A stretch of 64,000 nt of DNA from Alphaproteobacteria bacterium HGW-Alphaproteobacteria-18 (lineage in GTDB: Bacteria; Pseudomonadota; Alphaproteobacteria; Caulobacterales; Hyphomonadaceae). Of the stretch, positions 4,624-21,355 are shown in pieces; the first letter of the stretch is position 1; each line of letters starts with the position of its first letter. The notes under the pieces were generated by a model, which was not told the origin of the DNA, searched no databases, and worked only from the letters and a program-made list of their open reading frames with translations. The translations under genes were made by a program, and so were the position numbers. The DNA is taken from assembly GCA_002841155.1 (NCBI GenBank), contig PHEH01000001.1, positions 361,825-425,824 on the forward strand. Direction: 5' to 3'.

Positions 4624-6336
4624 TCAGCCAAGCCCTGGCCGGGGGGCCGCGCCGGGCATGTCCGCGAGCATTCGGGCTTGCCCCACCCAATCATCCCGCT
4701 CGATCCGGCCTTTGAAATGCAGGAGTTTTTCGTCGACATAGGCGACATCATCGTCTGTCCATTCGGCGATCTGCCAGAAGTAGAAGACGCCGACCTCGTG
4801 CAGCAGGTCTGTCAGGATTGGACCAACGCCGACAATCTGCGCGAGATCATCGCCCTCACCGAATGCGGCGTGTGTGAGCAGGTTTGCCTCATCGTCAGGC
4901 CGGCGGGCCTCTGCGATGGCTTCTGCGCGCCGGCTGATTTCAGCGGTGGGGAGCGTGCGGGTCGTACGGACACTGGTGCGGGCTTCATAACCTGCTGCTT
5001 CTGCGCGCTGGCGAGGCGTTTCGGTCTCGGTTCGCACGCTGTCACCGCGGCCGCGGAGCATGTGATGCAAGGCCGTGACGCCATACTCGATTGAGGTGAG
5101 GCGGTCTTCCAGCGCGCTCAGGTCTTCGCGCGTCACCTCATTTGAGGGCGGGTTGTTGACCGCTTCCTGGATAGTGAGCAGACGGCGTTCGATGGTTTCG
5201 AGACGTGTCTGGCTGCGAAGTTCGTTGCGGATCGTACCGACTGAAGAGTCCAGCGATGCCAGTTGCGCAAACAGCGGCTCCAGATCCGGCGCGCGTCGGG
5301 AGGCAACCACGTCGAGGTCTGCTTCCACGGCCGCGAGGGTTGCGATCAGCGCGTCGTTCAGCGGGGTCGTGGCGGTAATGCGTTCCTGGACGAGGGCAAA
5401 GCGGTCCATGAGCGAGGCATCAATCTCGGCAAGACGATTGTGGATTGGATCGAGATCAGGAGTTTCGGGCATTTCGATGCGGGAAACCGCTTCGCCGACC
5501 GAGCCTATTTCACCCGATACCCTGGCAATATCGGTGGACACGTTAGTCACTTCGCTCGATAGGGCGGCGAGTTCTATGGAGAGGGTAGCCACATCGCCTG
5601 CCAGAGCCGCAAAGGACTCCTTCTGGTCCAGAGCGTCCAGGAGCTCTTCCAGTTTTGAAAGCCGCGTTTCGACGGGCCGGAGGTCAATTTCGGGCGGCTG
5701 TAGTTCCGACAGGCTGAGATCAAGGCGGGCAAGGCCGCTGTGAACCGGGCCGAGATCGACCTCGGGAATCCGGAAATTTGCGATCTGCGTTTCGAGCGCG
5801 AACAGTCGCTCCTGCAAGGGCGCAATATCTGGCCGGCTGGCGGAAACCGTCTCGGCGAGAGAGGCAACACGTGCATTGATGCTGTCGACATCGGGCATGC
5901 GGATACCGTCGACACGGTCGGCGACATCTTTGATGTTTCTGGAAATAGCATCGAGGTGGATGCTGCGCAGGCCGGCAATTGAGGCAGAGATGGTGGACAC
6001 GGCCTGCTCGATGGCGCCGACGCGCTCCTTCAGGGAACCCATATCCGGATCGGGGGCGGACAATTGCCGCTCAAGCAGGCCGAGACGCTCCTGGAGCGGG
6101 TGAAAATCCGGCTGGGGAGGCTGATAGGCGGCAAGCGCGGCTGTGAGGCTGGCGTCGATATCCTCAAGTTTGAGGGCGCGTCCGTCGGCAATGGCGGTTT
6201 CCACCTGACGGGTCAGTTCGGCATGCGTTTCTGTCACATCCACAAAGCGGCGGCGCAGCCACCACCAGGCGAGCGCTGCCCCAAGGGCGGCGGAGACACA
6301 CATGAAGAAGAAGATCTGAATAAGCAGGAACCACAT
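4624..6336 (-). CDS. Membrane-anchored coiled-coil repeat protein with C-terminal helix-hairpin-helix
   Basis: 570-aa protein with an N-terminal transmembrane segment (residues about 3-28, ending in basic LRRR). A long helical region follows, carrying a repeated motif P-[DE]-[LIV]-x-x-[LIV]-x-x-R-[LV]; copies begin near residues 78, 98, 150, 171, 193, 218, 295 and 352, often 21-24 residues apart. The C-terminal 70 residues contain DLAQIVGVGPILTDLLHEVG, a helix-hairpin-helix of the kind in COG3743-type proteins. ATG 6336 is chosen over GTG 6342 because GGAGA is well spaced only for the ATG. It lies 46 bp downstream of the BON-OmpA gene, so a shared envelope role is inferred. Function unknown. 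Confidence 0.75.
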   Translation of the reverse strand: MWFLLIQIFFFMCVSAALGAALAWWWLRRRFVDVTETHAELTRQVETAIADGRALKLEDIDASLTAALAAYQPPQPDFHPLQERLGLLERQLSAPDPDMGSLKERVGAIEQAVSTISASIAGLRSIHLDAISRNIKDVADRVDGIRMPDVDSINARVASLAETVSASRPDIAPLQERLFALETQIANFRIPEVDLGPVHSGLARLDLSLSELQPPEIDLRPVETRLSKLEELLDALDQKESFAALAGDVATLSIELAALSSEVTNVSTDIARVSGEIGSVGEAVSRIEMPETPDLDPIHNRLAEIDASLMDRFALVQERITATTPLNDALIATLAAVEADLDVVASRRAPDLEPLFAQLASLDSSVGTIRNELRSQTRLETIERRLLTIQEAVNNPPSNEVTREDLSALEDRLTSIEYGVTALHHMLRGRGDSVRTETETPRQRAEAAGYEARTSVRTTRTLPTAEISRRAEAIAEARRPDDEANLLTHAAFGEGDDLAQIVGVGPILTDLLHEVGVFYFWQIAEWTDDDVAYVDEKLLHFKGRIERDDWVGQARMLADMPGAAPRPGLG

Positions 6337-6382
6337 GGTCACTCTCCGCCGGTGGGCGCGTTAAGGGGGATCGGGCAGGGGC

Positions 6383-7555
6383 TCATTCGCCCGGCCTGAC
6401 GATTCGGATTTCGATCCGGCGGTTTCGGGCACGCCCGTCTTCGGTATTGTTGTCACCCACCGGATTGTTCTGCCCATACCCAGCCGCGACGAGCCGGCCG
6501 GACGGGACACCGCGCTCGATCATGGCGGCGCGGACTGCCTCTGCGCGGCGCAGGCTGAGCTGGTCGTTGAAGGCGGGATTTCCGGTATTATCCGTGTGCC
6601 CCTCAACACGAAGGGTTCCGGGGCAGTCGCCCGCCGCGCGCGCGGCGAGATCCAGCACAGGGCCACTGGCAACATTCAAGACAACACTGCCCGGTGCAAA
6701 CTCGATCCGCGCCACTTCGAGAAGGCGAGAGAGCTCCTCCTCGCAGCTGGTAATGGCTTGTATCGGAAGGATTTCCACCGTTCCGAAAACGCCAAGCGGC
6801 AAGCCCGCATTTACTGCGGCGCGGATCGTCTCAACCTTTTCATCGTCTGCTTCGCACCGGAAACTGAAGGTCAGTTTCGTGAAGCTCGCCGTGCCCGATT
6901 TGCATTCGGACAATGTGTCTATGGCCCGCTGCGCAACGGCTTCAAAGCCATAGGGCGTTGTTCCCTGCGTGACGTTCAGTCTGTTGATCACATCAACGAG
7001 ATGATCTTGAGACTTATGGCTATCAGCCCTTCCACCAAGGTCTGCTTTCAGCGCTTCAGTTGGTATCTGCCCATTGAGTGTCAACGTACCTGCCGTCAGG
7101 CGAAACAGGAATTCCGGGTCGGCAGATTGACCTGTTGTGGTCGTCAACGAGTTTGCATTCGCCGGAGCGGAGGTAACGAATCTGGCATTTACGCGCGTAA
7201 CGGGCCGGGCAGCCCCCAACCATGTGGAAGAGACGCCCTGCTTTACCGCTGTGATGGCGCGCTGGCCCGCTTCCGGGGTGGGCGGTGTCCCTTCAAGCGT
7301 GATCCACTGGCCAGACGCGCGGACCCTGGCCCAGCTTTCTCCAGCATCCGCCAGAGCGCGCTCAGACGTGGCACGGGCAGAGCCCTGGATTGCCGTATAG
7401 GCGAGCACGGACCAGCCGAAAAGCAGAAGCGCAAGTAGCCCGGCCACAGGCACTAGGCCGTAGGGAAAGAAGGGCATGATGGCGCCTTCAGCGCGGCGAT
7501 AGCGCCGTACCGGTAGTATTTTTTTCAGATCCGACTGGCTGGAGTCGACCGACAT
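6383..7555 (-). CDS. Membrane-anchored BON-OmpA domain protein
   Basis: 390-aa envelope protein. Residues about 30-55 form one transmembrane segment (YGLVPVAGLLALLLFGWSVL) after a basic N-terminus, followed by two BON-like modules (about 60-215) and a C-terminal OmpA peptidoglycan-binding domain (about 285-390) with the diagnostic VEGHTDNTGNPAFNDQLSLR and NRRIEIRI segments. It should tie the inner membrane or periplasm to peptidoglycan. The start at 7555 is preferred over the longer frame because AAGG lies 7 bp upstream and the 33 extra residues of the longer frame look random. First gene of a two-gene unit with the coiled-coil repeat protein. Confidence 0.85.
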   Translation of the reverse strand: MSVDSSQSDLKKILPVRRYRRAEGAIMPFFPYGLVPVAGLLALLLFGWSVLAYTAIQGSARATSERALADAGESWARVRASGQWITLEGTPPTPEAGQRAITAVKQGVSSTWLGAARPVTRVNARFVTSAPANANSLTTTTGQSADPEFLFRLTAGTLTLNGQIPTEALKADLGGRADSHKSQDHLVDVINRLNVTQGTTPYGFEAVAQRAIDTLSECKSGTASFTKLTFSFRCEADDEKVETIRAAVNAGLPLGVFGTVEILPIQAITSCEEELSRLLEVARIEFAPGSVVLNVASGPVLDLAARAAGDCPGTLRVEGHTDNTGNPAFNDQLSLRRAEAVRAAMIERGVPSGRLVAAGYGQNNPVGDNNTEDGRARNRRIEIRIVRPGE

Positions 7556-8170
7556 TCTTCCGCCTTTAGTGGCCCTGACCCAGGAGAGGGGATGGAGCCT
7601 CATCCACGCCCTGACACTACAGCAAGTAAAGCCACAATACTGCAGGAGCGGCAATATCAGGCATTAATAATCGGGAAACCCACGTGGGGCGGGGAACTCA
7701 CATTAATTCATTGTTTTATCTAATGTTTTGTCCTTTTGGGTGGTTGGTATGTGATTGGGGCGGTGGATTGAAGCCTTTGGCCGGACTTACAAATCAGCCG
7801 CAGGAAAAACAGGTGAACGCTGTTGGGGGAAAGTTGTTGTCCTGACTCCTTCGCCTGTGGGGAGATTATCGTGCACCATATTCGCGACCCAAGAGTATTG
7901 TTGGAGCGACCATTTGGATTTTCGGATTTCCAGACGAAGAAATTCTTTGAGGGATGACCGGGGAAAGAAAAAATTCCTCCTTGTTCATTGGCGGCGCTAC
8001 TTTTCTCTTGGGGAAGATACCGCGCATGGAGCCGAGCCGGATAGGCGCAGCCAGATTAGGGGGAAATTCCGTGATGGGTTCGCCATATTCACTGGCGGTC
8101 GCAGCAAATTAACCGGGGAGAGGGGCACAGAATATATACCGCATTCGGACGAACTGTCCCTTTGCCAGAC
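7556..8170. other. Non-coding stretch upstream of the BON-OmpA gene
   Basis: About 600 bp with no convincing gene. It is more AT-rich than its surroundings in parts (for example 7660-7740). It contains a 10-bp palindrome CCCACGTGGG at 7679-7688 that could be an operator for the leftward BON-OmpA gene. Open frames here (longest TTG-started, 7755-8192) have odd composition and no recognisable motif, so no CDS is called. Confidence 0.5.
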
Positions 8171-8303: not shown

Positions 8304-11300
8304 TCAATCTTTTGAGGTGAAGGCAATCGAGATTGGGCTCGCCTCATAGATGCGAAGGCCGTCACACCAGAGGGAGCCCCGGCCGGTGACGATGCGGCGG
8401 CGGGCGTCGCCGGAGATCTCGGTGATCTCCATGACGGTGGTGACCTCTTTTTTCTCAGGCGTGACCTGGCCGCGATAGGACCATTTCACGGGCATATCTG
8501 CCGCGAGGGTTTCGATAGGGGCGCTTTCCGCCGCGAGGCCTTTGAGGAGGCTCGCGCGGGTCAGGAGCTGGACCATGGCATCAAGGCCGAGAGAGCCGGG
8601 CTGGACGGGATCGCCAAAGAAGTGAGCTTTGAAATACCAGGCATAGGGGTCGATGACCTGCCTTGCGCGGGCGAGACCAAGGCCGGCTTTGCCGCCGGCG
8701 GGGTCGAAGTAGTCCACGCGGTCGAGCATGCGGAGCTGGCCGGATGCGAGGCGTGGATCGCGGGGGGTGAGGTCTCGCGCGTCACCGGGGAGGGCGAGAT
8801 AAGACTTGTCCACCTGACCGGCTCCGAGGCCCGCCTGGCGGACAAGGGCCTGAGCCGGGAAGAAGCCGAAGCGGGTCGAGAGGTCGATGACCGGCTCGCC
8901 GGACTTCAGGCGTCCTTTCAGATCGAAGGCCACGATGGTCATCGGGCCGACCTTGGAGAAAGAGGAGAGGGTGGTGTCGACGCAGATCGTGCCGTCGCGC
9001 GGGCCCAGCGTGCGATAGACGCGGCCATCGCCTTCGAGATTGCGGAAACGGTCTCCGCCATCCAGGGCAAAGCCGCAATGGCTGGCGAGCCAGCCGCAGG
9101 GCTGGAGCGCGATTTCGGAGAGGACCGAGAAAGGCATTTGGCCATTCTTGTTATCTGCGAAATACCAGGCGTCGGGCGGGATGTCGTATTCGGCGGAGAT
9201 GGAGGCGCCAGCGCGGCGCACGCCGGGGCGATCGGTGGCAGCGATGACGCGCGACATCATGTGATAGGGCGGCTGGGGCAGGCGGGGAACTTTGCCCTCG
9301 GTATCAAAGCGGCGATACATTTCTCCGAAGGCGGAGGAAGGCGCGCCATTGGCGCAGTCAAGCAGGGCGGCATAGTCGCCCCGGCTCTCATTCTGAGGGC
9401 CGGTACGGATGGGGGACGGCGCGACGCGCGGCGCAGGCCATTGGCGGCGCAGCTGGATGCCGAAGCGGGGGCAGTAGAAGACCTTCCTGCCGTCACAGCG
9501 CGCCAGAAGCGCCGCGAAGACTTTCGGCGTTTCGCCGTCGATCACCTCGTCAATGAAGACTTCATAGGTGATGTCGTGATCGCCGTCCGGAATGACCTGG
9601 CCGCGGCAGATGAATTTGGCCGTTTCACCGGGGACAGGCTCAAAGACATAGCCGTCGCGTTCCTGCGTGAGGCCAAGGGCGGCGGCGTAGAATTCCAGCG
9701 CCTGAACGGCGGCCTCGGCCATCAGCGTGCCGGGCATGCAGGGGTCATTGTGGAAGTGCCCCTCATAGAACCAGGCATCCTTGGGTGTGTGGGCGCGGGC
9801 CTTCAGATAACCACGTTTCCAGGGCCCGCCGCCGGGATCGAACTCGGGAACCTCGTCGAAGAAGGCGAGCTTGCCGCCCGGCAGATGGGCGGGGAAGGAA
9901 TGGGCAGCGCACAGCTCAAAGCCTGCGCCGAAACAGGCGAAGGCGTCGCCCAGGCGGAAGGCGGCCACATCATCGGCGGTGAAGGCCGGTTTGCGGCTGG
10001 CGCGGGAAGTGTTGATGGGGGCGGGATCTGCCGTGGGCGGAGCGTCTCTGGCGGCGTCCCAGACGACGCCTTTGCCCGAGGCAAGCTCGGCATCGGTGAA
10101 GAAGCCGGCCTGTCCCTGGCGGACGGAGAAAGCGCGGCGCCCGGCGGCTTCGCAATCATACTGGAAGAAGAACATGCGCACGCCGCCGAAAGTGGCGTGC
10201 TGGGTGATCTCGATCTGGAATTTCAACGTGTCGCCCGCCTCAGGCAGGCCACCTTCATGGAAGGTGATTTCGCAGCCCAGAAGACGGTAGACCCGTTCAT
10301 TCCGGTTACGGAGGTCTGCGCCCATCCAGCCGATGAGGGTGAGGTCTGCCTGTCCGCATTCGATCAGCGGGCCGGGGCGGATGCGGCCTTTCTGCATCAT
10401 CCAGTGATCGGCCGTGAGGTCTGTCTCGGTCCAGATGACGCCTTTGCCATCGACGAGAGGGGCGGCGTCGATGCCGGTGACGCGGTCAACGAGAAGGAGG
10501 GGCGGGGCGGGGAGGCGGACGTTTCGGGCGTACTGGTCCTGCTCGGCAAACACCTCGCCGAAGAAGGCGGACATGGGGCCGCGCGAGGCGGCTTCGATGG
10601 CGGGACGGTCCCAGGCTTTGCCGGTGGGCGCTCGCTTCTGGAGAGGCTGGCGGCCGGAGACGACGCCGGAGGGCGGGGGCAGGGTGGGTTGTGCCGGTTC
10701 GGGGCTGCAGGGCTGGTGCGCTCCGGGCGGAGGCGGGAAGGGGACGGCGCCGGTCGGGGCAGGCGCGGGTGTGATGCGTGCGTAGATGGGCGGGGGTAGT
10801 GTGGGGGCGGCGGGCATGGTGGCGCCGCGCGGCGCAGCCGGCTTTGTGCGTGCGGGCAGTTTGGGCGTTTCGTATTTCGCGGGCCGGGTGATGGTGGCGG
10901 ATTTGGGCACGGCCCAGGGGTGGGCGCGGGCGTCATCGAGGCGGGCAGCAACGGTTTCTATACGGATGGGATGGCCTGCGGCAAAGAGCGTGGCGGAGAG
11001 GCGCGCGATCTGGGCGAGGTCTCCGCTTTCGATCTCGTCGGTGGCAATGGCGAGGTGGGGCTTATCCTTCAGGGTGAGGCGGATGGATTGGGTGAGGGAG
11101 TCGCGAGGGCCGAGTTCGACAAAGGTCCGTACACCGTCTTCCCAGGCCTGGCGGACGGTGGCGGGGAAATCGACGGTGGTGACGGCCTGCCGGGTGAGCA
11201 TGTCGGCGACTTTGGCCCTGGTGGGCTTGTAGGCGGCGTTGATGGCATTGGCGTAAAGGCGGGGGCCGTTTTCGACGCGGGAGACGGGGCGGGTGTGCAG

Positions 11301-14300
11301 CTGGCGCCATTTGTCGGCGAAGGGCGTCATGGCGCTGGCATGGACGATCAGGTGCTGGTGCATCAGCGCGCCGGCGCCTTTGCCGAGGGAGTCTGCGACC
11401 GCACGGCAGGCCTCTGCCGGGCCGCCGATCATCGCGTCCATATCGGAATAGATGATCGTGATTTCGACATTGGGATGGGCGGCCACGGCCTTGCGGACAT
11501 CCGCGATGGGCGCGCGCAGGCGCCAGTTTGACCAGTCTGTGGGGACGTTCGGGCCCCAGGCTTCCTTCGCGGTTTCGAAGTCTCCGCCGAGATGGCGCTC
11601 ATACATGGCGGCGCCGGAAATATCGTCCAGCAGGGCGCCCATGTCCTTCCAATAGCCGAAGGCGAAGAGGGCGTTGCTTTCGCCGAGCGAGAGGCCGAGG
11701 GCGGCGGTGGGCGACAGGCCGAGCATATCGTGCAGGAGGATGGCGTGGGCCTGTGTCAGCAGGCTGACGGCGCAGAGCTGCTCGAATTCCGTGAGGCTCG
11801 CTTTGGCCAGCAGGGGTGTCATGGCCTGCGCGGCGGGGATGTCACTGAGCCCGGCAGCGACTTCGGGGAAGGCGCTGAGGAGGCCGCGCCCCATGCGGGG
11901 GTAGGAGGCGGCCGAGCCGGTGAAGGCGAAGGCGAGTTCGCCGTCTGGATCGCCAGCGCCATAGAAGATGCCGTCACCTTCGGGGGGCGTATCGGCGGCG
12001 AGGGCGTCTGCGGCGGATTTGGACAGTAAGCGGAGGGCTTCCTCGTCTGTGGTGAGAAGCGCGATGCGGTGCTTGCCACTGCCGCCTTGTTTTCTAGCGT
12101 TCAGTTTTTTGGCGAGGGCGGGGCGGCTGGCGGCGGCGGCCCAGTAGAGATGAGGTGTGGGGCGGAGCATATCCGGCGACGGGCGGACCGGGGCGGGCGT
12201 GACTGTGACGGAGAGGCCGGGGGAGGTTGTCGTCGCAGGGGCGGCGGAGGTGAAAGCGGGGATGGCATCGGCGAGACAGGGCGCGGCGATCATTTCGTCT
12301 GGAGTGGGCGTGAGGCCGCGGGCAGCAAGGGCAAGGCGGACGGCGAGATCGAAGAGGGGGCCGGCGACGGGCGCGGTGCCGTAGGCAGATTGTATGAGGC
12401 GGGTGTCTGTCGGGGCGGCAGCGCTCCAATCCATGCGGCTGACCGTGCCGAGGATGGGATCACCTGCGGCCTGCGCATCCTTGCGGCGCTTGAGGACGAG
12501 GGCGGCGGCCATGTCGGCGGGTGGGGCGGCGGTATGGGTGGCGGCGGCGGTCTCGGTGGCAAAATCGGCGGCGGCGACGAGGGCGAGGTCGAGGTCGCCC
12601 AGGCGGAGGGCGTCGCAGGCCGCGTCGAGGGCGGCGAGGCCGGAGGCTTCTTCGGCGGCGATGGCAAAGCCCCGGCCCCGGAAGTCTTCCGAGACGGTGA
12701 GGCGGTTGGCGGTCATGTTTGCCATGGCGCCGAGGACGTCGGCAGCGACGAGGGGCGGGGCGATGGCGTTGAGGGTTTCTGGCGAAGAGATGCCTTCAGA
12801 GGCGATCCGTTCCCGGAGGAGCCAGCGGGTGCTGTCATTGGCGCAGCCTGTGCCGGTGAAGACGCCGCAGGTCTCAAGTGGCGGGCGGGAGACGCCTTCT
12901 AGGGCCATCGCGGCGGTCTCGAAGATGGCGAGTTGCTGGGGTTCGGCGCGCAGGAGATCGGCCGGAGGCGTGCGGGCGCGGACGGGGTCGGCGCTGACGG
13001 TCTGTGCGGCAGGCGCGCTCTGGAGCGGGGTATTCATCAGGCGGCGGAGGACGGCGCGTTCGCCGCGATCCGGGCCGGCAAGGAGGCCGACGCCGCAAAT
13101 GACGATGTCATCTGTGGAGACGTTTTTCAGTTTGGCGCCTGGGGCGTAGCGGGTGCCCGGTTCGTATTGTTCCAGGATGAGGTGGGAATTGTTGCCGCCG
13201 AAGCCGAAGTTGCTGATGGCCGCGCGGCGGGGGCTATCTCCCCGCGTCCAGGGTTCGGGGGTGGAGAGCGGGGTGAGGCCGTTGCCATGGAGCGTGGGGA
13301 GGAGGGTGCCGTCGAGAGGCATGGCGGGGAGGGTTTGCCGGCGCATGGCGGCGGTAAGCTTCAGGACGCTGGCGAGGCCGGCGACGGTGATCAGGTGGCC
13401 GGTATTGGCTTTCAGGGAGCCGATGGGGAGGCGGCGGGGGCCGAAGACACTGGCCGAAGAGGCGATCTCGACACTGTCGCCGACGGAGGTTCCGGTCGCG
13501 TGGCATTCGAGGAAGTTGATCGTGGCCGGATCAATACCGGCCTGAGCATAGGCGCGGCGCATGGCTTCTGTCTGGCCGGTGGCGTCGGGCGCGAGCAGGC
13601 CTTTGCGGCGGCCGTCATTGGAGAGGCCGATACCCCGGATGACCCCGTGGACGGTCTCGCCTGTCTTCACGTCGGCGAGGCGTTTGAGGATAATGGCGGC
13701 AGCGCCTTCGGAGGGCACGAGGCCGTCAGCGCCTTCGATAAAGGGGCGGGAGCGGCCGGTGGGGCTCAAGGCTTTAAGCGCGCTGAAGCCGATATGGAGG
13801 ATGAGATTGTCGGCTGCGTTGACGGCAGCAACGGCGGCGATGTCGATCTGGCCGGCGGCGAGTTTGCGGCAGGCGATTTCGAGGGCGTAGAGCGAGGAAG
13901 CGCAAGCGGCGTCGAGCGCGAGGATGGGGCCTGTGGCGCCGATGGCGTCTGCGATATGCTTTGCCGGGAAGCCGGAATTCAGGGTGTCTGAGAGGGGACG
14001 GCCTGTTTGGCCATCTCGCCAGATGTCGGCAGCGTAGGCGGCTTTGGCGCGGCTGGGATAGAGGAGGTTGGCGAGGATGACGGCGCGCCGCTCTGGGGCG
14101 ATGTGATCGGTGGCGGTGCCCGACCAGGCGTCGAGGACGGCTTTGAGCGGCCAGCGGCAGACGGGATCAAGGCGGGCGGAGGCATCGGTCTGCGCCTCGT
14201 CGATCAGGCCTGAAACCCAGGCGGGATTACCTGCGCCGCGATCAGCAAGGCCGAGGCGTGCCGGGGAGACGCGCTGGGTGACGACGCGCTTGTCTTCCAC

Positions 14301-14384
14301 GATGCGCCAGAGGGCATCGGGCGTATCGGCGCCGGGCAGGACGCAGCCTTCCCCAACGATGGCGATGGGTTCAAACCAGCTCAT
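8304..14384 (-). CDS. Pfa-type synthase KS-CLF-AT-DH-DH (PfaC with embedded PfaB-like AT)
   Basis: 2026-aa iterative synthase subunit, expected to be cytoplasmic. An active ketosynthase spans about 1-415 (Cys161 in DAACASSL, His295 in ECHATGT, His330 in KANTGH). A chain-length-factor KS spans about 425-740, with Glu579 where the catalytic Cys would be. A PfaB-like acyltransferase follows at about 815-1145 (Ser899 in GLSLGE, His1015), then a proline-rich linker (about 1155-1260). Two FabA-type double-hotdog dehydratase regions follow, with His1543 in HFHNDPCMPG and His1921 in HFFGDPVQPG. The order resembles myxobacterial Pfa3 but without a C-terminal acyltransferase. Its ATG overlaps the KR stop by 4 bp, indicating coupled translation. 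Confidence 0.93.
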   Translation of the reverse strand: MSWFEPIAIVGEGCVLPGADTPDALWRIVEDKRVVTQRVSPARLGLADRGAGNPAWVSGLIDEAQTDASARLDPVCRWPLKAVLDAWSGTATDHIAPERRAVILANLLYPSRAKAAYAADIWRDGQTGRPLSDTLNSGFPAKHIADAIGATGPILALDAACASSLYALEIACRKLAAGQIDIAAVAAVNAADNLILHIGFSALKALSPTGRSRPFIEGADGLVPSEGAAAIILKRLADVKTGETVHGVIRGIGLSNDGRRKGLLAPDATGQTEAMRRAYAQAGIDPATINFLECHATGTSVGDSVEIASSASVFGPRRLPIGSLKANTGHLITVAGLASVLKLTAAMRRQTLPAMPLDGTLLPTLHGNGLTPLSTPEPWTRGDSPRRAAISNFGFGGNNSHLILEQYEPGTRYAPGAKLKNVSTDDIVICGVGLLAGPDRGERAVLRRLMNTPLQSAPAAQTVSADPVRARTPPADLLRAEPQQLAIFETAAMALEGVSRPPLETCGVFTGTGCANDSTRWLLRERIASEGISSPETLNAIAPPLVAADVLGAMANMTANRLTVSEDFRGRGFAIAAEEASGLAALDAACDALRLGDLDLALVAAADFATETAAATHTAAPPADMAAALVLKRRKDAQAAGDPILGTVSRMDWSAAAPTDTRLIQSAYGTAPVAGPLFDLAVRLALAARGLTPTPDEMIAAPCLADAIPAFTSAAPATTTSPGLSVTVTPAPVRPSPDMLRPTPHLYWAAAASRPALAKKLNARKQGGSGKHRIALLTTDEEALRLLSKSAADALAADTPPEGDGIFYGAGDPDGELAFAFTGSAASYPRMGRGLLSAFPEVAAGLSDIPAAQAMTPLLAKASLTEFEQLCAVSLLTQAHAILLHDMLGLSPTAALGLSLGESNALFAFGYWKDMGALLDDISGAAMYERHLGGDFETAKEAWGPNVPTDWSNWRLRAPIADVRKAVAAHPNVEITIIYSDMDAMIGGPAEACRAVADSLGKGAGALMHQHLIVHASAMTPFADKWRQLHTRPVSRVENGPRLYANAINAAYKPTRAKVADMLTRQAVTTVDFPATVRQAWEDGVRTFVELGPRDSLTQSIRLTLKDKPHLAIATDEIESGDLAQIARLSATLFAAGHPIRIETVAARLDDARAHPWAVPKSATITRPAKYETPKLPARTKPAAPRGATMPAAPTLPPPIYARITPAPAPTGAVPFPPPPGAHQPCSPEPAQPTLPPPSGVVSGRQPLQKRAPTGKAWDRPAIEAASRGPMSAFFGEVFAEQDQYARNVRLPAPPLLLVDRVTGIDAAPLVDGKGVIWTETDLTADHWMMQKGRIRPGPLIECGQADLTLIGWMGADLRNRNERVYRLLGCEITFHEGGLPEAGDTLKFQIEITQHATFGGVRMFFFQYDCEAAGRRAFSVRQGQAGFFTDAELASGKGVVWDAARDAPPTADPAPINTSRASRKPAFTADDVAAFRLGDAFACFGAGFELCAAHSFPAHLPGGKLAFFDEVPEFDPGGGPWKRGYLKARAHTPKDAWFYEGHFHNDPCMPGTLMAEAAVQALEFYAAALGLTQERDGYVFEPVPGETAKFICRGQVIPDGDHDITYEVFIDEVIDGETPKVFAALLARCDGRKVFYCPRFGIQLRRQWPAPRVAPSPIRTGPQNESRGDYAALLDCANGAPSSAFGEMYRRFDTEGKVPRLPQPPYHMMSRVIAATDRPGVRRAGASISAEYDIPPDAWYFADNKNGQMPFSVLSEIALQPCGWLASHCGFALDGGDRFRNLEGDGRVYRTLGPRDGTICVDTTLSSFSKVGPMTIVAFDLKGRLKSGEPVIDLSTRFGFFPAQALVRQAGLGAGQVDKSYLALPGDARDLTPRDPRLASGQLRMLDRVDYFDPAGGKAGLGLARARQVIDPYAWYFKAHFFGDPVQPGSLGLDAMVQLLTRASLLKGLAAESAPIETLAADMPVKWSYRGQVTPEKKEVTTVMEITEISGDARRRIVTGRGSLWCDGLRIYEASPISIAFTSKD

Positions 14385-15724
14385 GTGCCGCTCCAGACAG
14401 TGCCGACAATCAGTTCGACGTCGGAGGGATCACCGGCGAGGAGTTCGTGCGCGAAGATGCGGGCGCCTTCGCCGAGCGGGATGAGGGGCACGCCCTGTTC
14501 CTTGAAGTGGCTGGCGAGGGTTGCGTCGACCATGCCGCCTTCCCAGGGGCCCCAGTCGAAGACCTTGACCTGAGCGGCCGGAAGCTCTGCGCGCAGGGCC
14601 CGGCCGGCATTGGCGAGGATGGCGTTTGCCATGGCATAGTCTGACTGTCCCCGATTGCCGAAGAAGGCGGACGCCGAGGAGAAGAGGCCGACATGGCGGA
14701 GCGCGGCGCGATCTATGCGGGAGAGGATGTGGAAGAGACCTTCAGCTTTTGTGGCGAAGACGCGGCGGAGTTCGGCTTCGGTTTTTTCTTCGACCAGCCG
14801 GTCAGCGATGACGCCTGCGCCGTGGACGAGGCCGGTGACGGGGCCAAAATGTTGCCGGATATGGGCGAGGGCAGCGGTGACCGAGCCGGCGTCTGAAGTG
14901 TCCATGAGCACGTAGTGCGCTTCCGCGCCGGTCGCCGTGATCTCGGCCAGGGTGGCGCGGATTTCGAGCCCGGCGAGGGCCGCGCGGGCGGATTTGTCGA
15001 TGGTGGCGGGGGCGGGTTTCTCGCCGCGCTTGACGGCGGCGGCTGCCATCAGGCCCCGGAGGGTTTTGAGATCGGCGGTTTCCGGGATGCCTTCGGGCCA
15101 GGGCGTTTGGGCCGATCGCCCGGCGAGGATGAATGTGCCGCCGGATTGACGGGCAAGTTCTATGGCGCAGGTGGCTGTTACGCCGCGCGCGCCGCCTGTG
15201 ACGAGCCAGAGGCCGCCGGTTGCCGGCGTGAGCGAGCGGGGGGATACCATCTGGCCGAGGACGACCCGGCGCGCGGTGGCGTCCGGGGATAACCAGAGGT
15301 CTTCCTGCGCACGGCCGATCCAGTTTACGATTACATCGCCTTGGACGCGGCCTACCAGTGTCCAGCAGGCGGCGGAAACGTCGGGCCATTCGCGGCGCAG
15401 GGTGCGTGTGAAGCCTTCCAGGCCGGTATCGGCCGCAAGTTGCTGGAGGAAGATGAGGGTTGCGCCGCTCTTGCGGGCTTTGCTGGATGCCGTGAGGGCG
15501 GCCCAGTGGCGGGCGGTCATTGGGGCGTCCGAGAGGCCTTCGGTGAAGAAGACCGTGGCCGCTGTTCCGCTGGGGGTTGTCGCGCGCGTTGCCGGGATGC
15601 CCGCCGCGTTGAGCGCCGCGAGAAGGGCTGCGGCGGCGGCCGGCTCGGCATCGGTGACTTCGACGGCGCCTGCAATCTGCCGCGCCGTGGCCGGGATAAC
15701 GGTCTCCCAGCGCGCGGCGCGCAC
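14381..15724 (-). CDS. Pfa ketoreductase (KR) frame, probably fused to PfaA by -1 frameshift
   Basis: 447 residues counted from a GTG at 15724. They comprise a structural KR subdomain (about 1-160) and a catalytic KR (about 170-447) with the NADPH motif LVTGGARGV and catalytic Ser350, Tyr363 and Asn367 (SDYAMAN). In Pfa systems the KR normally follows the ACPs in the same polypeptide. This frame is open upstream past the PfaA stop to at least 15811, encoding a Pro/Ala linker, and is the -1 frame relative to PfaA. The GTG has only a weak GGA 6 bp upstream. Either the KR is made by frameshifting or it is a separately initiated protein. The PS-DH region that often follows KR is absent. Confidence 0.85.
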   Translation of the reverse strand: MRAARWETVIPATARQIAGAVEVTDAEPAAAAALLAALNAAGIPATRATTPSGTAATVFFTEGLSDAPMTARHWAALTASSKARKSGATLIFLQQLAADTGLEGFTRTLRREWPDVSAACWTLVGRVQGDVIVNWIGRAQEDLWLSPDATARRVVLGQMVSPRSLTPATGGLWLVTGGARGVTATCAIELARQSGGTFILAGRSAQTPWPEGIPETADLKTLRGLMAAAAVKRGEKPAPATIDKSARAALAGLEIRATLAEITATGAEAHYVLMDTSDAGSVTAALAHIRQHFGPVTGLVHGAGVIADRLVEEKTEAELRRVFATKAEGLFHILSRIDRAALRHVGLFSSASAFFGNRGQSDYAMANAILANAGRALRAELPAAQVKVFDWGPWEGGMVDATLASHFKEQGVPLIPLGEGARIFAHELLAGDPSDVELIVGTVWSGT

Positions 15725-15763
15725 GTCGCATCCGTAGGCCGCTAGCGTGTGTTCAGCCGGAAC

Positions 15764-15811
15764 GGGACGGGGGGCGGCGGGGGCCCGCCCACCATCCCTC
15801 AGGCAAAAAAA
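15764..15811 (-). promoter_or_regulatory. Candidate programmed -1 ribosomal frameshift signal
   Basis: Read on the minus strand: the heptamer T_TTT_TTT (15811-15805) lies in register with PfaA codons GAT TTT TTT. A 6-nt spacer GCCTGA (15804-15799) contains the PfaA stop. Then comes a 35-nt stem-loop (15798-15764): GGGATGGTGGGCGG, a 7-nt loop, CCGCCCCCCGTCCC. This gives 12 Watson-Crick pairs, one G-U and one mismatch. Slipping back one base gives TTT TTT TGC CTG and enters the KR frame. A GGAAG about 8 nt before the heptamer could act as an upstream Shine-Dalgarno stimulator. The 7-T homopolymer is also an error-prone site. Confidence 0.6.
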
Positions 15812-18800
15812 TCGGCGATCTTCCGGATGGTGCGCAGCTCCGCGATTTGCTCAGGCTCGACTTCCGGCAGGGAGGGATAGCGATCCCGCAGGGCGGAGAG
15901 GATTTCGACCTGTTTGATGGAATCGACGCCGAGCTCGCCTTCGAGGTCCATGTCGTCTTCGAGCATATCGGTGGGGTAGCCCGTTTTCTCGGCGATCAGG
16001 GCACGGACGATATCGGAGGAGACGCCTCTTGCCGAGTTGGGGGCGGAGGCTGCAGCCGGAGGCTGCATGGCCGGTGCGGGCGCGCTCGAAGCGGTTTCGG
16101 CGGCGGGCACGTTGCCGAGCATGGCGGCGATGGCGGCGATAGTGCGCAGTTCGACCAGTTTCTCCGGGTCAATTTCGGGGAGTTCGGGAACGCGGTCGCG
16201 CAGGGTGGAGAGAATTTCGACCTGTTTGATGGAATCGACGCCGAGTTCGCCTTCAAGATCCATGTCGATTTCGAGCATGTCTTCAGGATAGCCGGTCTTC
16301 TCCGAGATGATCGCGCGGACGAGGGCGATGGGATCGGGTCCGGCTGCTTGTGTGGCAGGAACCACGGCATCAGGCGCGGCATGGCCGTTTGTGTAGGGCT
16401 TGGGAGCCGGAGGCGCCGGGGCGATGTTGACCTCGGCGCGGGTGGCGGGGACGGGCGTGGGCGCCGCCTGCGGGGCGGGCTGAGGTGCAGGCGCTGGTGC
16501 GGGTGCGACAGCCGCTGCGGGGCGCGGCGGCGGGGGCAGCAGGGCCGGGGGCGGGGCCGTGATCTGTGGCGGCGGAAGCTGGGCGCCGCCGAGGAGGGAC
16601 GCGGCTGCATTAAGGTAGGCGGTGTGGACCGAGGCCGTTACCTGCAGGTAATCCTGATGGCGCTGGGAGACCTCATGCCAGATGCGCTCGATGGCGCCGG
16701 AAGGCGCCGCATAGACGGGTTGTTCCGTAGGCTGAGCGGGCGAAGGATCATTCGTGCGGGGCAGATCAGGCATGGGCGTCGAGATCCTTTCTGGAGAAAC
16801 GGCGGCAATAGGCTGGGAGGAGGAGGAGGAAGGGGTTTGAGGCGCAGGCGGGGGCGCCATCTGCGCGCGGGGCGGGTTGGGCGGCGCGCGTCCTGCGGCG
16901 CCGTCTTTGGGCGGGTAGGGACGGTCGTGATTGGCGCCCGTCAGCATCACGGCATGGCGCGAGGGCGCGGGCTTTGGAACCGGCGGCGGCGTTTCGGCAA
17001 GCAAGGCGGTGAAGTCCAGCGTGATGCCCGCGACGCTGAGCGTGCCGAGCGCGGCGAGGAACTGGGCGAGGCCGTTTGCGCGCTTGTTGTCGAGCGAGAC
17101 GGCGAGATAGTCGCGGCTGCCGAGCGTATCGGCAACGAGGCCGCTGACGACATTGCCGGGGCCGATCTCGAGGAAGATACGCGCGCCGGCGGCATACATC
17201 GCCTCGACTTCCTCGCGAAAACGGACCGGCGTGGCGACCTGGATGGCGATCTCGCCCGCCATGTCCGCCGCCTTGGCCTTGTAGGGGGCGGCTGTCGCGT
17301 TGGCATAAACCGGGAGACGGGGTTTTCTGATCTTCAGGCCAGCCAGAACATCCCGGAACGGATCAACGGCAGGGCTGACGACGCTGGAATGGAAAGCGGT
17401 GGCGACGGGCAAGCGGCGGGCTTTGACGCCGCGCTGGGCGATGAGGTCTTCGGCCTTCTGAATGACGCTGACCGGGCCGGAGAGGACAACCTGGCTGGGG
17501 CCGTTATCATTCGCGATGACGAGGCCGCCGCCGATCTGTTCGACGAGCGGTCGGATGGCGTCTGCGTCACACTGGACGGCGAGCATGGCGCCTTCATTGG
17601 AGGCGGCGGCGTCGGCCATCGCGCGGCCACGAGCAGCGGCGATGGTGAGCGCGGTTTCGGTGTCGAAGGCGCCGCCATGGTGAAGGGCCATGATCTCGCC
17701 GAAGGAATGGCCGCCGGCCATGTCTGCCTCTAGGCCAAGGGCTTCGATGAGAGCTAGATGGGAGAGGGCGACGGCGGCGATGGCGGGCTGGGCGTGCTCC
17801 ATCGCGGTAAGGCGCTTGGTCTGGTTGCCGAACTCGACCTGATCGAAAGCAGCGGGCGGGAAGGCGAGGCGGTGGAGCTTGAGGGCGCCGGTGACGGGGT
17901 GGCTGGCGGCCGTGTCCCAGACGGCGCGAGCGGCCGGGAAGGCCATTGCGAGGTCTGCGCCCATGCCGGTGTATTGGCTGCCCTGGCCGGAGAAGAGGAA
18001 GGCGATCTTGCCGGGAGTGGCGGGATGGAGGGAGAGGCTGCAGCCTTGCGGGACGGGGGCGACGCCGGCGGACCCATCGGTGATCTGGGCGGCAAGGCGC
18101 TGGGCTTTTGCGGCGAGATCTTCGGGGCTGGTGGCGGTGATGGCGGCGCGGACGGGGGCGTTCGCGGCGAAGCGCTTCAGGGTGACTTCGGAGGCGGCGG
18201 CGAAGGCGTCTTCGGAGAGCGCTGTCTGTGTGGCGTCGCCAAGCTGCTGGGCGAGGGCGGCGGCGTCGCTGGCGCTGTAGAGGAAGAGTTCGGCGGGGAA
18301 GACGCGGGGCGGCTTGGCGGCGCCGGGGCCGGTGTATTCTTCAAGCGTGACGTGGAAATTGCTGCCGCCGAAGCCGAAGGAGCTGACCGAAGCGCGGCGG
18401 GGGCGGGTGTCGGCGCTGATCCAAGGGCGGGCCTCGGTGTTGACGTAGAAGCAGGCGCTGTCGCGGATGGCGTCGGCGGGTTCCTCGATCTTGATCGTGG
18501 GCGGAAGGATTTTGCGGCGGAGGGATTCGACTGCCTTGAGCAGGCTCGCCGAGCCGGCAGCGGCCTTGGTGTGGCCGATCTGGGATTTGACCGAGCCAAC
18601 GGCGCACCAGGGGCCGTCTTCCGTTGCCTTATCGCCAAAGACGAGGTGCAGACCTTCGATTTCGGCGCGGTCGCCCGCCTTGGTGCCGGTGCCGTGGGCT
18701 TCGAGGTAGTCGACCGCTTCGGGGCCATAGCCGGCCTGGTCATAGGCGCGGCGCAGGGCACGGGCCTGGCCGGAGGGGAGGGGCGTGTAGATGGCGGTGC

Positions 18801-19755
18801 CCTTGCCGTCCGAGCCGCCGCCGAGGCCGCGAATGACGGCGTGGATGGTGTTGCCGTCGCGCTCAGCCTCATCGAGGCGGCGCAGGGCGACCATGCCGAT
18901 GCCTTCGCCGAGCATGGTGCCGTCAGCGGCGTTTGAGAAGGGGCGGCAGTCGCCCGACGGCGAAAGGGCCGGTGTCTTCGAGAAGCACATGAACATCAGG
19001 ATGTCGTTCAGCGCGTCGACACCGCCGGTCAGTACCATGTCAGAATCGCCGGCGCGGAGTTCGTGCATGGCGATCTGCAGGGCCGAGAGGCTGGAGGCGC
19101 AGGCGGCGTCGGTGACGTAGTTGCTGCCACCGAGATCCAGCCGGTTGGCGATGCGGCCGGCGACGACGTTACCGAGGAGGCCTGGGAAAGTGCTTTCCTT
19201 CCATTCGGCGTAATGGCTTTCGATGCGGCGGGCGATGTCCTGCACTTCGGTTTCCGGCAGGCCCGCCTGGCGCAGCGCATTGACCCAGGCGGGGCGCTGA
19301 AGGCGGCCGGCCATATGGGCGGTGAGCTCAGTGGCGGAGGCAACGCCGAGAATGACGCTGGTGCGGGTGCGGTCAAATTTGCCGCCACTGTCGCGCTCGG
19401 CATCGTCCAGCGTCATCTTCGCAGCGATGAGGGCGAGGAGCTGGGCAGAGTCGGTTGTCTGCAGCGCGGCGGGCGGGATGCCGAATGCCATGGGATCGAA
19501 GGCGACCGGCGAGAGAAAGCCGCCGCGGCGGCCATAGGTGCGATCCGGGGTCAGGGGGCTGGGATCGTAATAGTCGTCGATCAGCCAATGGGTGGCGGGT
19601 GTGTCGCTCAGAAGGTCGCGGCCTTCGAAGATGTCCCGCCAGAAGCCGGTGGTATCTCCGCGCCCCGGGAAGATGGCACCCATGCCGACGACGGCGATCG
19701 GCGCGGCAGGATCAAAGCTGGCAGGTTTGCGTGTTTCGGTCATGATTTCACTCAA
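15799..19755 (-). CDS. pfaA: Pfa-type synthase KS-AT-ACP-ACP (PfaA/Pfa2-like)
   Basis: 1318-aa megasynthase subunit. The ketosynthase (about 15-475) has Cys219 in DAACASSL, His354 in EAHGTGT and His395 in SQIGHT. The malonyl-type acyltransferase (about 583-890) has Ser684 in GHSFGE and His789. A long Pro/Ala-rich linker (about 920-1135) follows. Then come two nearly identical acyl carrier domains with LGVDSIK and phosphopantetheine serines Ser1175 and Ser1279. PUFA synthases commonly carry five or more ACPs, so two is few. The stop falls immediately after ACP2, at a slippery T7, and the KR continues in the -1 frame. The start overlaps the pfaD stop by 8 bp. A phosphopantetheinyl transferase is required but is not in this window. 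Confidence 0.93.
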   Translation of the reverse strand: MSEIMTETRKPASFDPAAPIAVVGMGAIFPGRGDTTGFWRDIFEGRDLLSDTPATHWLIDDYYDPSPLTPDRTYGRRGGFLSPVAFDPMAFGIPPAALQTTDSAQLLALIAAKMTLDDAERDSGGKFDRTRTSVILGVASATELTAHMAGRLQRPAWVNALRQAGLPETEVQDIARRIESHYAEWKESTFPGLLGNVVAGRIANRLDLGGSNYVTDAACASSLSALQIAMHELRAGDSDMVLTGGVDALNDILMFMCFSKTPALSPSGDCRPFSNAADGTMLGEGIGMVALRRLDEAERDGNTIHAVIRGLGGGSDGKGTAIYTPLPSGQARALRRAYDQAGYGPEAVDYLEAHGTGTKAGDRAEIEGLHLVFGDKATEDGPWCAVGSVKSQIGHTKAAAGSASLLKAVESLRRKILPPTIKIEEPADAIRDSACFYVNTEARPWISADTRPRRASVSSFGFGGSNFHVTLEEYTGPGAAKPPRVFPAELFLYSASDAAALAQQLGDATQTALSEDAFAAASEVTLKRFAANAPVRAAITATSPEDLAAKAQRLAAQITDGSAGVAPVPQGCSLSLHPATPGKIAFLFSGQGSQYTGMGADLAMAFPAARAVWDTAASHPVTGALKLHRLAFPPAAFDQVEFGNQTKRLTAMEHAQPAIAAVALSHLALIEALGLEADMAGGHSFGEIMALHHGGAFDTETALTIAAARGRAMADAAASNEGAMLAVQCDADAIRPLVEQIGGGLVIANDNGPSQVVLSGPVSVIQKAEDLIAQRGVKARRLPVATAFHSSVVSPAVDPFRDVLAGLKIRKPRLPVYANATAAPYKAKAADMAGEIAIQVATPVRFREEVEAMYAAGARIFLEIGPGNVVSGLVADTLGSRDYLAVSLDNKRANGLAQFLAALGTLSVAGITLDFTALLAETPPPVPKPAPSRHAVMLTGANHDRPYPPKDGAAGRAPPNPPRAQMAPPPAPQTPSSSSSQPIAAVSPERISTPMPDLPRTNDPSPAQPTEQPVYAAPSGAIERIWHEVSQRHQDYLQVTASVHTAYLNAAASLLGGAQLPPPQITAPPPALLPPPPRPAAAVAPAPAPAPQPAPQAAPTPVPATRAEVNIAPAPPAPKPYTNGHAAPDAVVPATQAAGPDPIALVRAIISEKTGYPEDMLEIDMDLEGELGVDSIKQVEILSTLRDRVPELPEIDPEKLVELRTIAAIAAMLGNVPAAETASSAPAPAMQPPAAASAPNSARGVSSDIVRALIAEKTGYPTDMLEDDMDLEGELGVDSIKQVEILSALRDRYPSLPEVEPEQIAELRTIRKIADFFA

Positions 19756-21355
19756 AGGGAACAGGCCGGAAGGAGAACAGCTCGGCGGGCACGGTCAGCC
19801 CCATAGACCGGAGCTGGCCGGCTCTTGTGACATGCGCGGCCCCTTCCATCAGGTTCAGCGCTATCTGGCGAACGGTGCGGGCTTCGACGGGCTCCAGGAA
19901 ACTGCCGGCGACCCATTCATTGAAAGCGCCCATCGCGGGGCCGCACCAGATCTGATAGTCGGCCACCCGGTCAGCCTGCCCTTCGCGGGCCCATTGGGCG
20001 CCCATGAAGAGGTAGCGGCGGGCAACCAGCGCCAAGCGCTTGTTGCCGTCTTCCTCGGCCCGCGCGGCCTCTGCAGGATTGACCCTCTGGATGTATGCGC
20101 GCGTGGCGGCCCAGGCGGCCGCGAAGGGCTCTCCCAGCACATCATCGATCCATTTCTGATCTGCTGTCGGCAGGGTCTCATAAGACGCGCCGCTGCGATA
20201 GAAGGCATGGAACTTCTTTCCGCGCATGGCGAACAGCGTGCCGCGCTTCAGCACCTGGACCTGAACGCCCTGTTCGAACATGTCGGCAGCCGGGGTCATG
20301 GCGACATCGGCCGGGCCAGCCCTGGCCAGAAGCGCGCGGCCTGCCTGGGCGAGGCCGGATTCGATGGCGCTCTGATTGATCGAGCCGGTGAGGACATAGG
20401 CCGCCCCCATCTGGAAGGCGGCGGCAACTGATTGTGGCGTGGCGATGCCGCCGGCGAGGCCGATGCGGATGCTGCTTTCGGGCAGACCATAACGGGTGGC
20501 AGTTCTGGCGCGGGCGGCACAGAGGGAACTGAAGAGCGGGGAAGCGGGACGGTTATCTGTGTGGCCGCCGGAATCGGCTTCGGCGGTGATGTCGGCGGCG
20601 ACGGGCACTTTGCTGGCCAGCTCTGCCTGCAGCGGGGTTATCGCGCCTTCTGCCACCAAGTCTTTCAGCATCTTTTCCGGCGCAGGCGCCATGAAAGCTT
20701 CGGCGACTTCGGCGCGGGAAACTTTGGCGAAGACGTGGTTGGCGCGCTGGACGCTGCCATCACCGGCGCGGGAGAGGCCGAGGGCCGTGTAGCGAACGAT
20801 GTCAGCCGTGAGCCGCATGAAGGCGGAGGCCGACACTCTCGAGACATTCTGCGACAGGAAGAGATCAATCACCGCCTTTTCCTGACCGGGTTCCTGAGGA
20901 GAGTGAATCAGGTTGGCGCCCCAGTTTCTGGCCTCGGGGCCGAGGGCAGCCTTGATTTCCTCAACGCCTGATTTGATCTCGGCGAGAGGCAATCCTGCGC
21001 TGCCGTAAAAGCCGACACAGCCGGCGCGGGCCGCTTCGATAACCATTCTGGGCGTTGCAATTCCACGCGCCATTTCACCAGCAACATAGCTGAAGCGGGC
21101 GCCGTGTTCGGCCGCGAAAGCGCGGTCGCCCAACCACTCAGGATAGACAGGCGGAAGCGTGGCGGTGCCGGGTTTACCGGCCGGGGGCAGGCCAACGGAA
21201 ACGAGTTCTGGAATGCCGGACTCGGGGATCGAAACCCATGCGCGCTCGCGCGGCGCCTCTACGGCGTTCCGTATCAAATCCAACACAATTTCCCGCCCTT
21301 CTGGCCGAAATGCAGCGGATCTGATCTCCGCGCCGTGCATAGTCTTAGAGGGCAT
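19748..21355 (-). CDS. pfaD: PfaD-like enoyl reductase (FMN, nitronate monooxygenase fold)
   Basis: 535-aa flavoprotein of the PfaD family, the trans-acting enoyl reductase of polyunsaturated and related fatty acid synthases. Characteristic segments are RMVIEAARAGCVGFYGSAG (near residue 105), GLAGGIATPQSVAAAFQMGA (near 304) and the following VLTGSINQSAIESG. It is the first gene of the leftward Pfa operon, the same order (ER, then Pfa2, then Pfa3) known from myxobacteria. ATG 21355 has no clear Shine-Dalgarno; ATG 21340 is an alternative start. It faces a divergent serine hydrolase across about 190 bp, which must hold the operon promoter. Confidence 0.93.
   Translation of the reverse strand: MPSKTMHGAEIRSAAFRPEGREIVLDLIRNAVEAPRERAWVSIPESGIPELVSVGLPPAGKPGTATLPPVYPEWLGDRAFAAEHGARFSYVAGEMARGIATPRMVIEAARAGCVGFYGSAGLPLAEIKSGVEEIKAALGPEARNWGANLIHSPQEPGQEKAVIDLFLSQNVSRVSASAFMRLTADIVRYTALGLSRAGDGSVQRANHVFAKVSRAEVAEAFMAPAPEKMLKDLVAEGAITPLQAELASKVPVAADITAEADSGGHTDNRPASPLFSSLCAARARTATRYGLPESSIRIGLAGGIATPQSVAAAFQMGAAYVLTGSINQSAIESGLAQAGRALLARAGPADVAMTPAADMFEQGVQVQVLKRGTLFAMRGKKFHAFYRSGASYETLPTADQKWIDDVLGEPFAAAWAATRAYIQRVNPAEAARAEEDGNKRLALVARRYLFMGAQWAREGQADRVADYQIWCGPAMGAFNEWVAGSFLEPVEARTVRQIALNLMEGAAHVTRAGQLRSMGLTVPAELFSFRPVPFE

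Follow-up and report, generated by a model that had tools for sequence, protein, structure and literature searches.

A Probable Programmed -1 Ribosomal Frameshift Site Conserved in the PfaA-Type Megasynthase of Hyphomonas and Two Further Genera of Hyphomonadaceae

Does the ketoreductase (KR) domain of a PfaA-like fatty acid/polyketide megasynthase become attached to its chain only when the ribosome changes frame? This question is raised by an alphaproteobacterial locus, analyzed here within a 64,000-nucleotide stretch of DNA (the window), where the open reading frame (ORF) for the KS-AT-ACP-ACP part of the enzyme closes ahead of the KR and the KR is found in the -1 frame. The comparison of this junction with those of related genomes indicates that it very probably represents a conserved programmed -1 ribosomal frameshift site, present in Hyphomonas and in two further genera of the same family.

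RESULTS

The ACP-KR junction in the window

The Pfa-like genes are all found on the minus strand, in the order PfaD-like gene, PfaA-like ORF, KR frame, and PfaC-like gene. The relevant features are as follows.

19748..21355, minus strand: PfaD-like enoyl reductase, sharing 8 nt with the pfaA ORF, with a FabD_helical_ins match above the cut-off and an NMO match below it
15799..19755, minus strand: zero-frame ORF, PfaA-like KS-AT-ACP-ACP, 1318 codons from a TTG, closing right behind ACP2
15805..15811, minus strand: slippery heptamer T_TTT_TTT, in register with GAT TTT TTT
15799..15801, minus strand: zero-frame stop codon TGA, one codon past the heptamer (GAT TTT TTT GCC TGA)
15764..15798, minus strand: GC-rich hairpin of 35 nt, beginning 6 nt past the heptamer, a putative stimulatory element
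14381..15811, minus strand: -1-frame ORF containing a linker and the KR domain, 476 amino acids (aa) counted from the slip
8304..14384, minus strand: PfaC-like gene with two KS stretches, two FabA-type DH stretches, and an AT match below the Pfam cut-off

In Pfam searches, the zero frame shows KS, AT, and two PP-binding stretches and the -1 frame shows KR. The zero frame, which has an alternative ATG at codon 5, ends in RTIRKIADFFA followed by the stop codon, so the initial annotation was right to place the end of the PfaA frame directly after the second ACP. Its other structural claims are borne out as well: the heptamer lies in the stated register, the -1 frame is open past the stop codon from the slip down to position 14381, and the frames give the same predicted product sizes: the short form would have 1318 aa and, with the TTG as its first codon, the slipped one 1791 aa. 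The locus has the makeup of a Pfa-type system, with KS, AT, and tandem ACPs in PfaA and the KR accessible only via the -1 frame, a KS-CLF (the second KS stretch being taken as the CLF) and tandem FabA-type DH domains in PfaC, and an adjoining PfaD. The KR stop codon and the ATG of the PfaC-like gene overlap as ATGA (14381-14384). By a count made by hand, ATGA is found at the KR stop in 33 of the 52 loci that have this stop; in most g3 genomes, an ATG precedes it by a few bases, the PfaC reading frame itself being verified in the window alone.

Farther along the same strand, the window encodes a 572-aa protein (4624-6342) with several weak matches to Pfam models of the coiled-coil type; NPV_P10 alone is above the cut-off, with no single NPV_P10 stretch significant. 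It is adjoined by an OmpA-family protein (6383-7654).

The heptamer by itself is given no weight as evidence, since TTTTTTY is not rare in the window (9 occurrences observed versus 11.5 expected) and a T7 run could arise by chance. The combined pattern ATTTTTTYNNNTRRGGG is found once in the 3.88-Mb genome, versus no occurrence of its reversed control. A looser pattern matched 40 of the 105 family genomes; among the 49 matches listed, 38 are at the Pfa gene and 11 elsewhere, with 9 for the reversed control. An intrinsic terminator was also considered for the T run and stem and was rejected, as judged by eye, because the T run stands 5' of the stem, not 3'.

Conservation of the junction in Hyphomonadaceae

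Searches for the KR (E values up to 1e-30) covered 105 genomes of the family, including 42 of the genus of the window. The family is Hyphomonadaceae according to NCBI, and the limits used for the 105-genome set may differ from it a little. The KR is found in 40 of the 42 Hyphomonas genomes and in 57 of the 105 family genomes, representing 3 of the 10 genera. In two of these 57, G015 and G018, contig ends cut the locus ahead of the junction, leaving 55 readable junctions, and in 54 of these the KR is in the -1 frame, open straight after the slip, behind U_UUU_UUY. A fused in-frame gene, which would have spoken against the initial annotation, is absent from the same 54, and the heptamer, the frame offset, and the stop codon are all retained there, as its comparison with close relatives called for.

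In the 54 intact junctions (G013 being excluded from this and the following counts of heptamers, stops, linkers, and start codons), an X_XXY_YYZ heptamer is always present in the zero frame. Its variation is confined to the seventh base, with TTTTTTT in 37 junctions and TTTTTTC in 17, both of which provide Phe codons. The zero-frame stop is found exactly one codon past the heptamer in all 54, as TGA (21), TAG (19), or TAA (14), and is directly followed in each by GGG, which opens the hairpin. The constant position of a stop codon that itself varies suggests that the short product may be under selection.

The exception, G013 (L027/L041), retains the heptamer and the stop codon, and its -1 frame ends after 15 codons; past the zero-frame stop, the KR is again encoded in the zero frame (L041, position 2853 onward). 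Either decay of this copy or an assembly error accounts for this state. Homopolymer runs are prone to indel errors, and the state of G013 resembles such an error or decay, so that a sequencing or assembly error, or gene decay, could be invoked for the whole family. The identical offset in 54 genomes of three genera makes a T lost from the reads implausible, and the probability of this explanation is negligible.

A conserved hairpin downstream of the heptamer

In the window, the hairpin has a stem of 7 bp and 6 bp, interrupted by one mismatch, below a 7-nt loop, with an MFE of -26.4 kcal/mol for the 35-nt piece; this is the 14-bp stem with one G-U pair and one mismatch, 7-nt loop, and 6-nt spacing that had been noticed from the letters of the window. 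In bacterial -1 frameshift signals, the stimulatory structure is typically found about 5 to 9 nt downstream. In the family junctions, the hairpin likewise begins 6 nt past the heptamer; in G028 (L007), part of the outer stem is lost. Most junctions (43) have a hairpin of 35 nt, and 11 have one of 32 nt. The 32-nt variant is found in a Hyphomonas subclade (L029 to L039), where it is shorter by one codon and preserves the frame.

Covariation was analyzed, along with RNAalifold predictions, in 43 of the 55 junctions (37 distinct sequences), leaving out the 11 with the 32-nt hairpin and G013. In the 37 distinct sequences, 10 of the 14 pairs have changed at both positions. The observed covariation score, 0.322, compares with 0.197 +/- 0.016 for shuffled controls, which retain the relatedness among the sequences (none of 500 reaches the observed score), and at most 0.243 for slid controls. 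Among five covariation measures, the one termed further pair types does not exceed the shuffles (188 of 500). Only 79% of the cells in this alignment are paired, because the inner pairs differ among subclades. RNAalifold, unaided, recovers six outer and three inner pairs.

In most junctions, the stability of the hairpin exceeds what the encoded protein sequence would impose. When the -1 frame was recoded synonymously, 37 of the 55 hairpins were matched by no more than 5 of 500 recodings and 51 by no more than 25 of 500, with a median z of -2.85; L017, L018, L054, and L041 (G013) do not beat this null at the 5% level. Likewise, 48 of the 55 junctions have no nearby scanned window of equal size as stable as the hairpin, the weakest being L018 (32 of 329 windows). 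The hairpin is predicted to stimulate slippage. Inspection by eye revealed no conserved SD-like element upstream.

The hairpin also bears on transcriptional slippage, whereby RNA polymerase would add a U on the T run and part of the mRNA would decode normally into the KR. Runs of A or T are described as slippage sites in bacteria (in excerpts of PMC1088944). Such a source for the frame change is favored by the seven T at 37 of the 54 junctions and by the A10 found at the same junction in two unrelated genomes (G886 and G830; see below). Against it, the run stops at six T in the other 17 family junctions, with C as the next base, and seven T is the maximum, so that no long homopolymer is present in any of the 54. 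The homopolymers at which transcription slips commonly comprise 8 to 9 or more residues. In addition, at the moment of slipping the polymerase has yet to transcribe a hairpin located 3' of the run, so the conservation of the hairpin and of its spacing points to the ribosome. Transcriptional slippage is accordingly regarded as very unlikely.

The linker and possible starts of a separate KR

A different possibility is that the KR is a separate protein, made by coupled re-initiation inside its own ORF after the PfaA stop, the overlap of the frames being incidental. This arrangement has a counterpart in the type D Pfa clusters, where KS-AT-ACP and KR are described as separate genes (PMC3098273, in excerpt), and an ATG, GTG, or TTG is found in the KR frame by codon 33 in 38 of the 54 loci (by codon 20 in 12), with the first one at codon 29 or 30 in 19 loci. 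The first possible starts are, however, scattered from codon 4 to codon 110 with none common to all loci, and 16 of the 54 lack any up to codon 33. SD-like matches in codons 1 to 110 of the KR frame number only 9, in 8 loci, and none of them stands ahead of a start at codon 29 or 30.

The linker offers a second argument. In 134 close pairs among the 54 loci (the pairs not being independent), differences at codon positions 1, 2, and 3 are 0.28, 0.20, and 0.49 in linker codons 17 to 33, compared with 0.30, 0.24, and 0.53 in KR codons 34 to 100 and only 0.15, 0.11, and 0.17 in the hairpin codons. Judged from this pattern, the linker varies like codons of the -1 frame, much as the KR does. Its constraint is weak, since amino-acid-changing differences (839) exceed silent ones (581). 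Re-initiation would also leave the invariant heptamer and the covarying hairpin unexplained. Separate initiation of the KR, the outcome that the initial annotation had named as contrary to its reading, is thus unlikely, though conceivable in individual species, and as an explanation of the junction it is highly improbable.

KR codons 101 to 470 show a strong third-position excess, with 16,226 silent versus 11,950 changing differences, which argues against error or decay as the source of the -1 split.

Outgroups and history of the signal

Beyond the family, the order sample (398 genomes) yielded five genomes with the KR in frames of 1982 to 2836 aa, and the class sample (385 genomes) yielded five more, with frames of 1512 to 2462 aa. 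Reading covered 14 outgroup loci, four of them plasmid records. ACP and KR share a frame in 13, and the remaining one (L077) is without an ACP match. Annotation treats the plasmid matches H7, H9, and H14 each as one fused gene, and the unannotated Azospirillum record is in frame by reading. No run of six or more T is found at the ACP end of the fused outgroup loci; L071 has a T6 elsewhere between ACP and KR.

The 52 family rows of a 72-KR tree group into one clade with a support of 99/95 (midpoint root). G013, L040, and L067 were left out of this tree, and the first 95 residues of the family KRs were trimmed. The simplest history would be a single gain of the signal on the line to the family KRs, from an in-frame ancestor. 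The KR of L052 (G062), a g3 genome, is placed among the Hyphomonas (genus-1) rows, consistent with a possible transfer of the KR between genera. Taken together, the conservation in the family, the covariation, the linker, and the in-frame outgroups allow sequence error to be dismissed and strongly support programmed -1 frameshifting.

Proposed mechanism and its consequences

Under programmed -1 frameshifting, ribosomes translating KS-AT-ACP-ACP would arrive at U_UUU_UUY with tRNA-Phe occupying both the P and the A site and would pause at the hairpin beginning 6 nt downstream. A fraction of them would re-pair one base back (tandem slippage) and read on into the linker and KR, and the remaining ribosomes would terminate one codon past the heptamer. 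One mRNA would then direct the synthesis of both KS-AT-ACP-ACP and KS-AT-ACP-ACP-KR, and the signal would determine their ratio. Given the ATGA overlap of the KR stop and the pfaC start in the window, frameshifting may also couple the synthesis of the KR-bearing PfaA to that of PfaC. A KR-poor mixture could change the extent of reduction per cycle or balance the numbers of ACP and KR.

Excerpts of PMC4066793 list H_HH.U_UU.Y heptamers among the efficient ones in Escherichia coli. In that host, slippage is weaker on U_UUU_UUU than on A_AAA_AAG (PMC5009743, in excerpt), so the frameshift rate could be modest.

Such a site in a biosynthetic megasynthase would decide the attachment of a chain-reducing domain. 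The number of KRs per synthase, beyond their mere presence, becomes testable as a factor in the product, and moving such a cluster to another host would require a working frameshift there. Annotated "split" megasynthase genes may likewise be recoded. For studies of the signal itself, 36 distinct natural 35-nt hairpins behind U_UUU_UUY are available.

Comparison with known systems

In E. coli dnaX, -1 frameshifting yields the tau and gamma proteins. The Hyphomonas locus resembles dnaX in having an in-frame heptamer, a downstream stem, a nearby zero-frame stop, and a predicted pair of products, one long and one short, from one gene. It differs in its heptamer, U_UUU_UUY instead of A_AAA_AAG (the dnaX slippery site according to excerpts of PMC5009743), in the stop codon located exactly one codon past the slip, and in the predicted short product lacking an entire catalytic domain, the KR, of a megasynthase. 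U_UU.U_UU.C is listed among the -1 frameshift motifs of bacterial insertion sequences in excerpts of PMC4066793. Frameshifting in those elements shares the kind of heptamer and the downstream structure, whereas the site described here is found in a host biosynthetic gene, not a mobile element. To our knowledge, conserved -1 frameshifting in nonmobile bacterial genes is limited to few cases, dnaX and a handful of others.

The canonical PfaA of PUFA synthases is KS-MAT-ACP(4-6)-KR (PMC3098273, in excerpt). The Hyphomonas protein has the same domain order and PfaC-like and PfaD-like partners but differs in the number of ACPs (two) and in the location of the KR in the -1 frame. A split pfaA and a fused pfaBC characterize the type D and H Pfa clusters; in type D, the split gives KS-AT-ACP5 and KR genes (excerpts of PMC3098273). 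In these clusters, the split pfaA is described as two genes, and the comparison with the Hyphomonas locus is one of descriptions; their fused pfaBC is KS-CLF-AT-DH2. The AT match of the PfaC-like protein in the window is the one below the Pfam cut-off.

The initial annotation knew of no frameshifting in a PUFA-type synthase, and no report of it is found in the titles and abstracts of the open-access literature searched, a scope that leaves subscription papers and preprints mostly outside. No such gene is found in the excerpted parts of a recoding survey (PMC3711429), and the words "frame" and "Hyphomonas" are absent from the main text of the survey by Shulse and Allen (PMC3098273).

Other -1 splits at the ACP-KR junction

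Outside the family, 22 places were screened: 6 with short open frames, and 16 judged by open-frame length (G436 was also read). Five of the six (all but G929) were read: the frames of G791 and G869 are open to the contig end, and G796, G886, and G830 are true -1 splits.

In G796 (L092, at about position 3586 of the reverse complement), a genome of an unrelated family, the KR of the Pfa-type gene follows C_CCA_AAG in the -1 frame, with a 12-bp stem 6 nt downstream of the heptamer. The 73-nt piece has a stability of -36 kcal/mol, and 16 of 640 windows are as stable. C_CCA_AAG is the sole candidate heptamer in an overlap of 334 nt, in which about 0.4 would be expected by chance. A search for relatives in 3 genomes of its family and 48 of its order yielded only G796.

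That recoding at the ACP-KR junction arose several times in Pfa-type synthases, setting how many chains carry a KR, and that frameshifted genes may underlie some of the published "split pfaA" clusters, is a tentative proposal, rather doubtful at present. It is rated lower because of the chance expectation of about 0.4 for the G796 heptamer and the number of equally stable windows. The splits in G796, G886, and G830, each a single genome, are leads that might reflect convergence.

In G886 (L093, 3139-3148), the only genome of its order in the sample, and in G830 (L094, 3711-3720), an A10 run is found at the ACP-KR junction and the KR lies in the -1 frame; 694 of 760 and 208 of 840 windows, respectively, are as stable as the piece at the junction, whose structure therefore does not stand out. 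Slippage, frameshifting, and assembly error are candidate readings of these A10 splits. In the family of G830 (74 genomes, 6 with a match), G959 has an open frame of 2105 aa around the KR.
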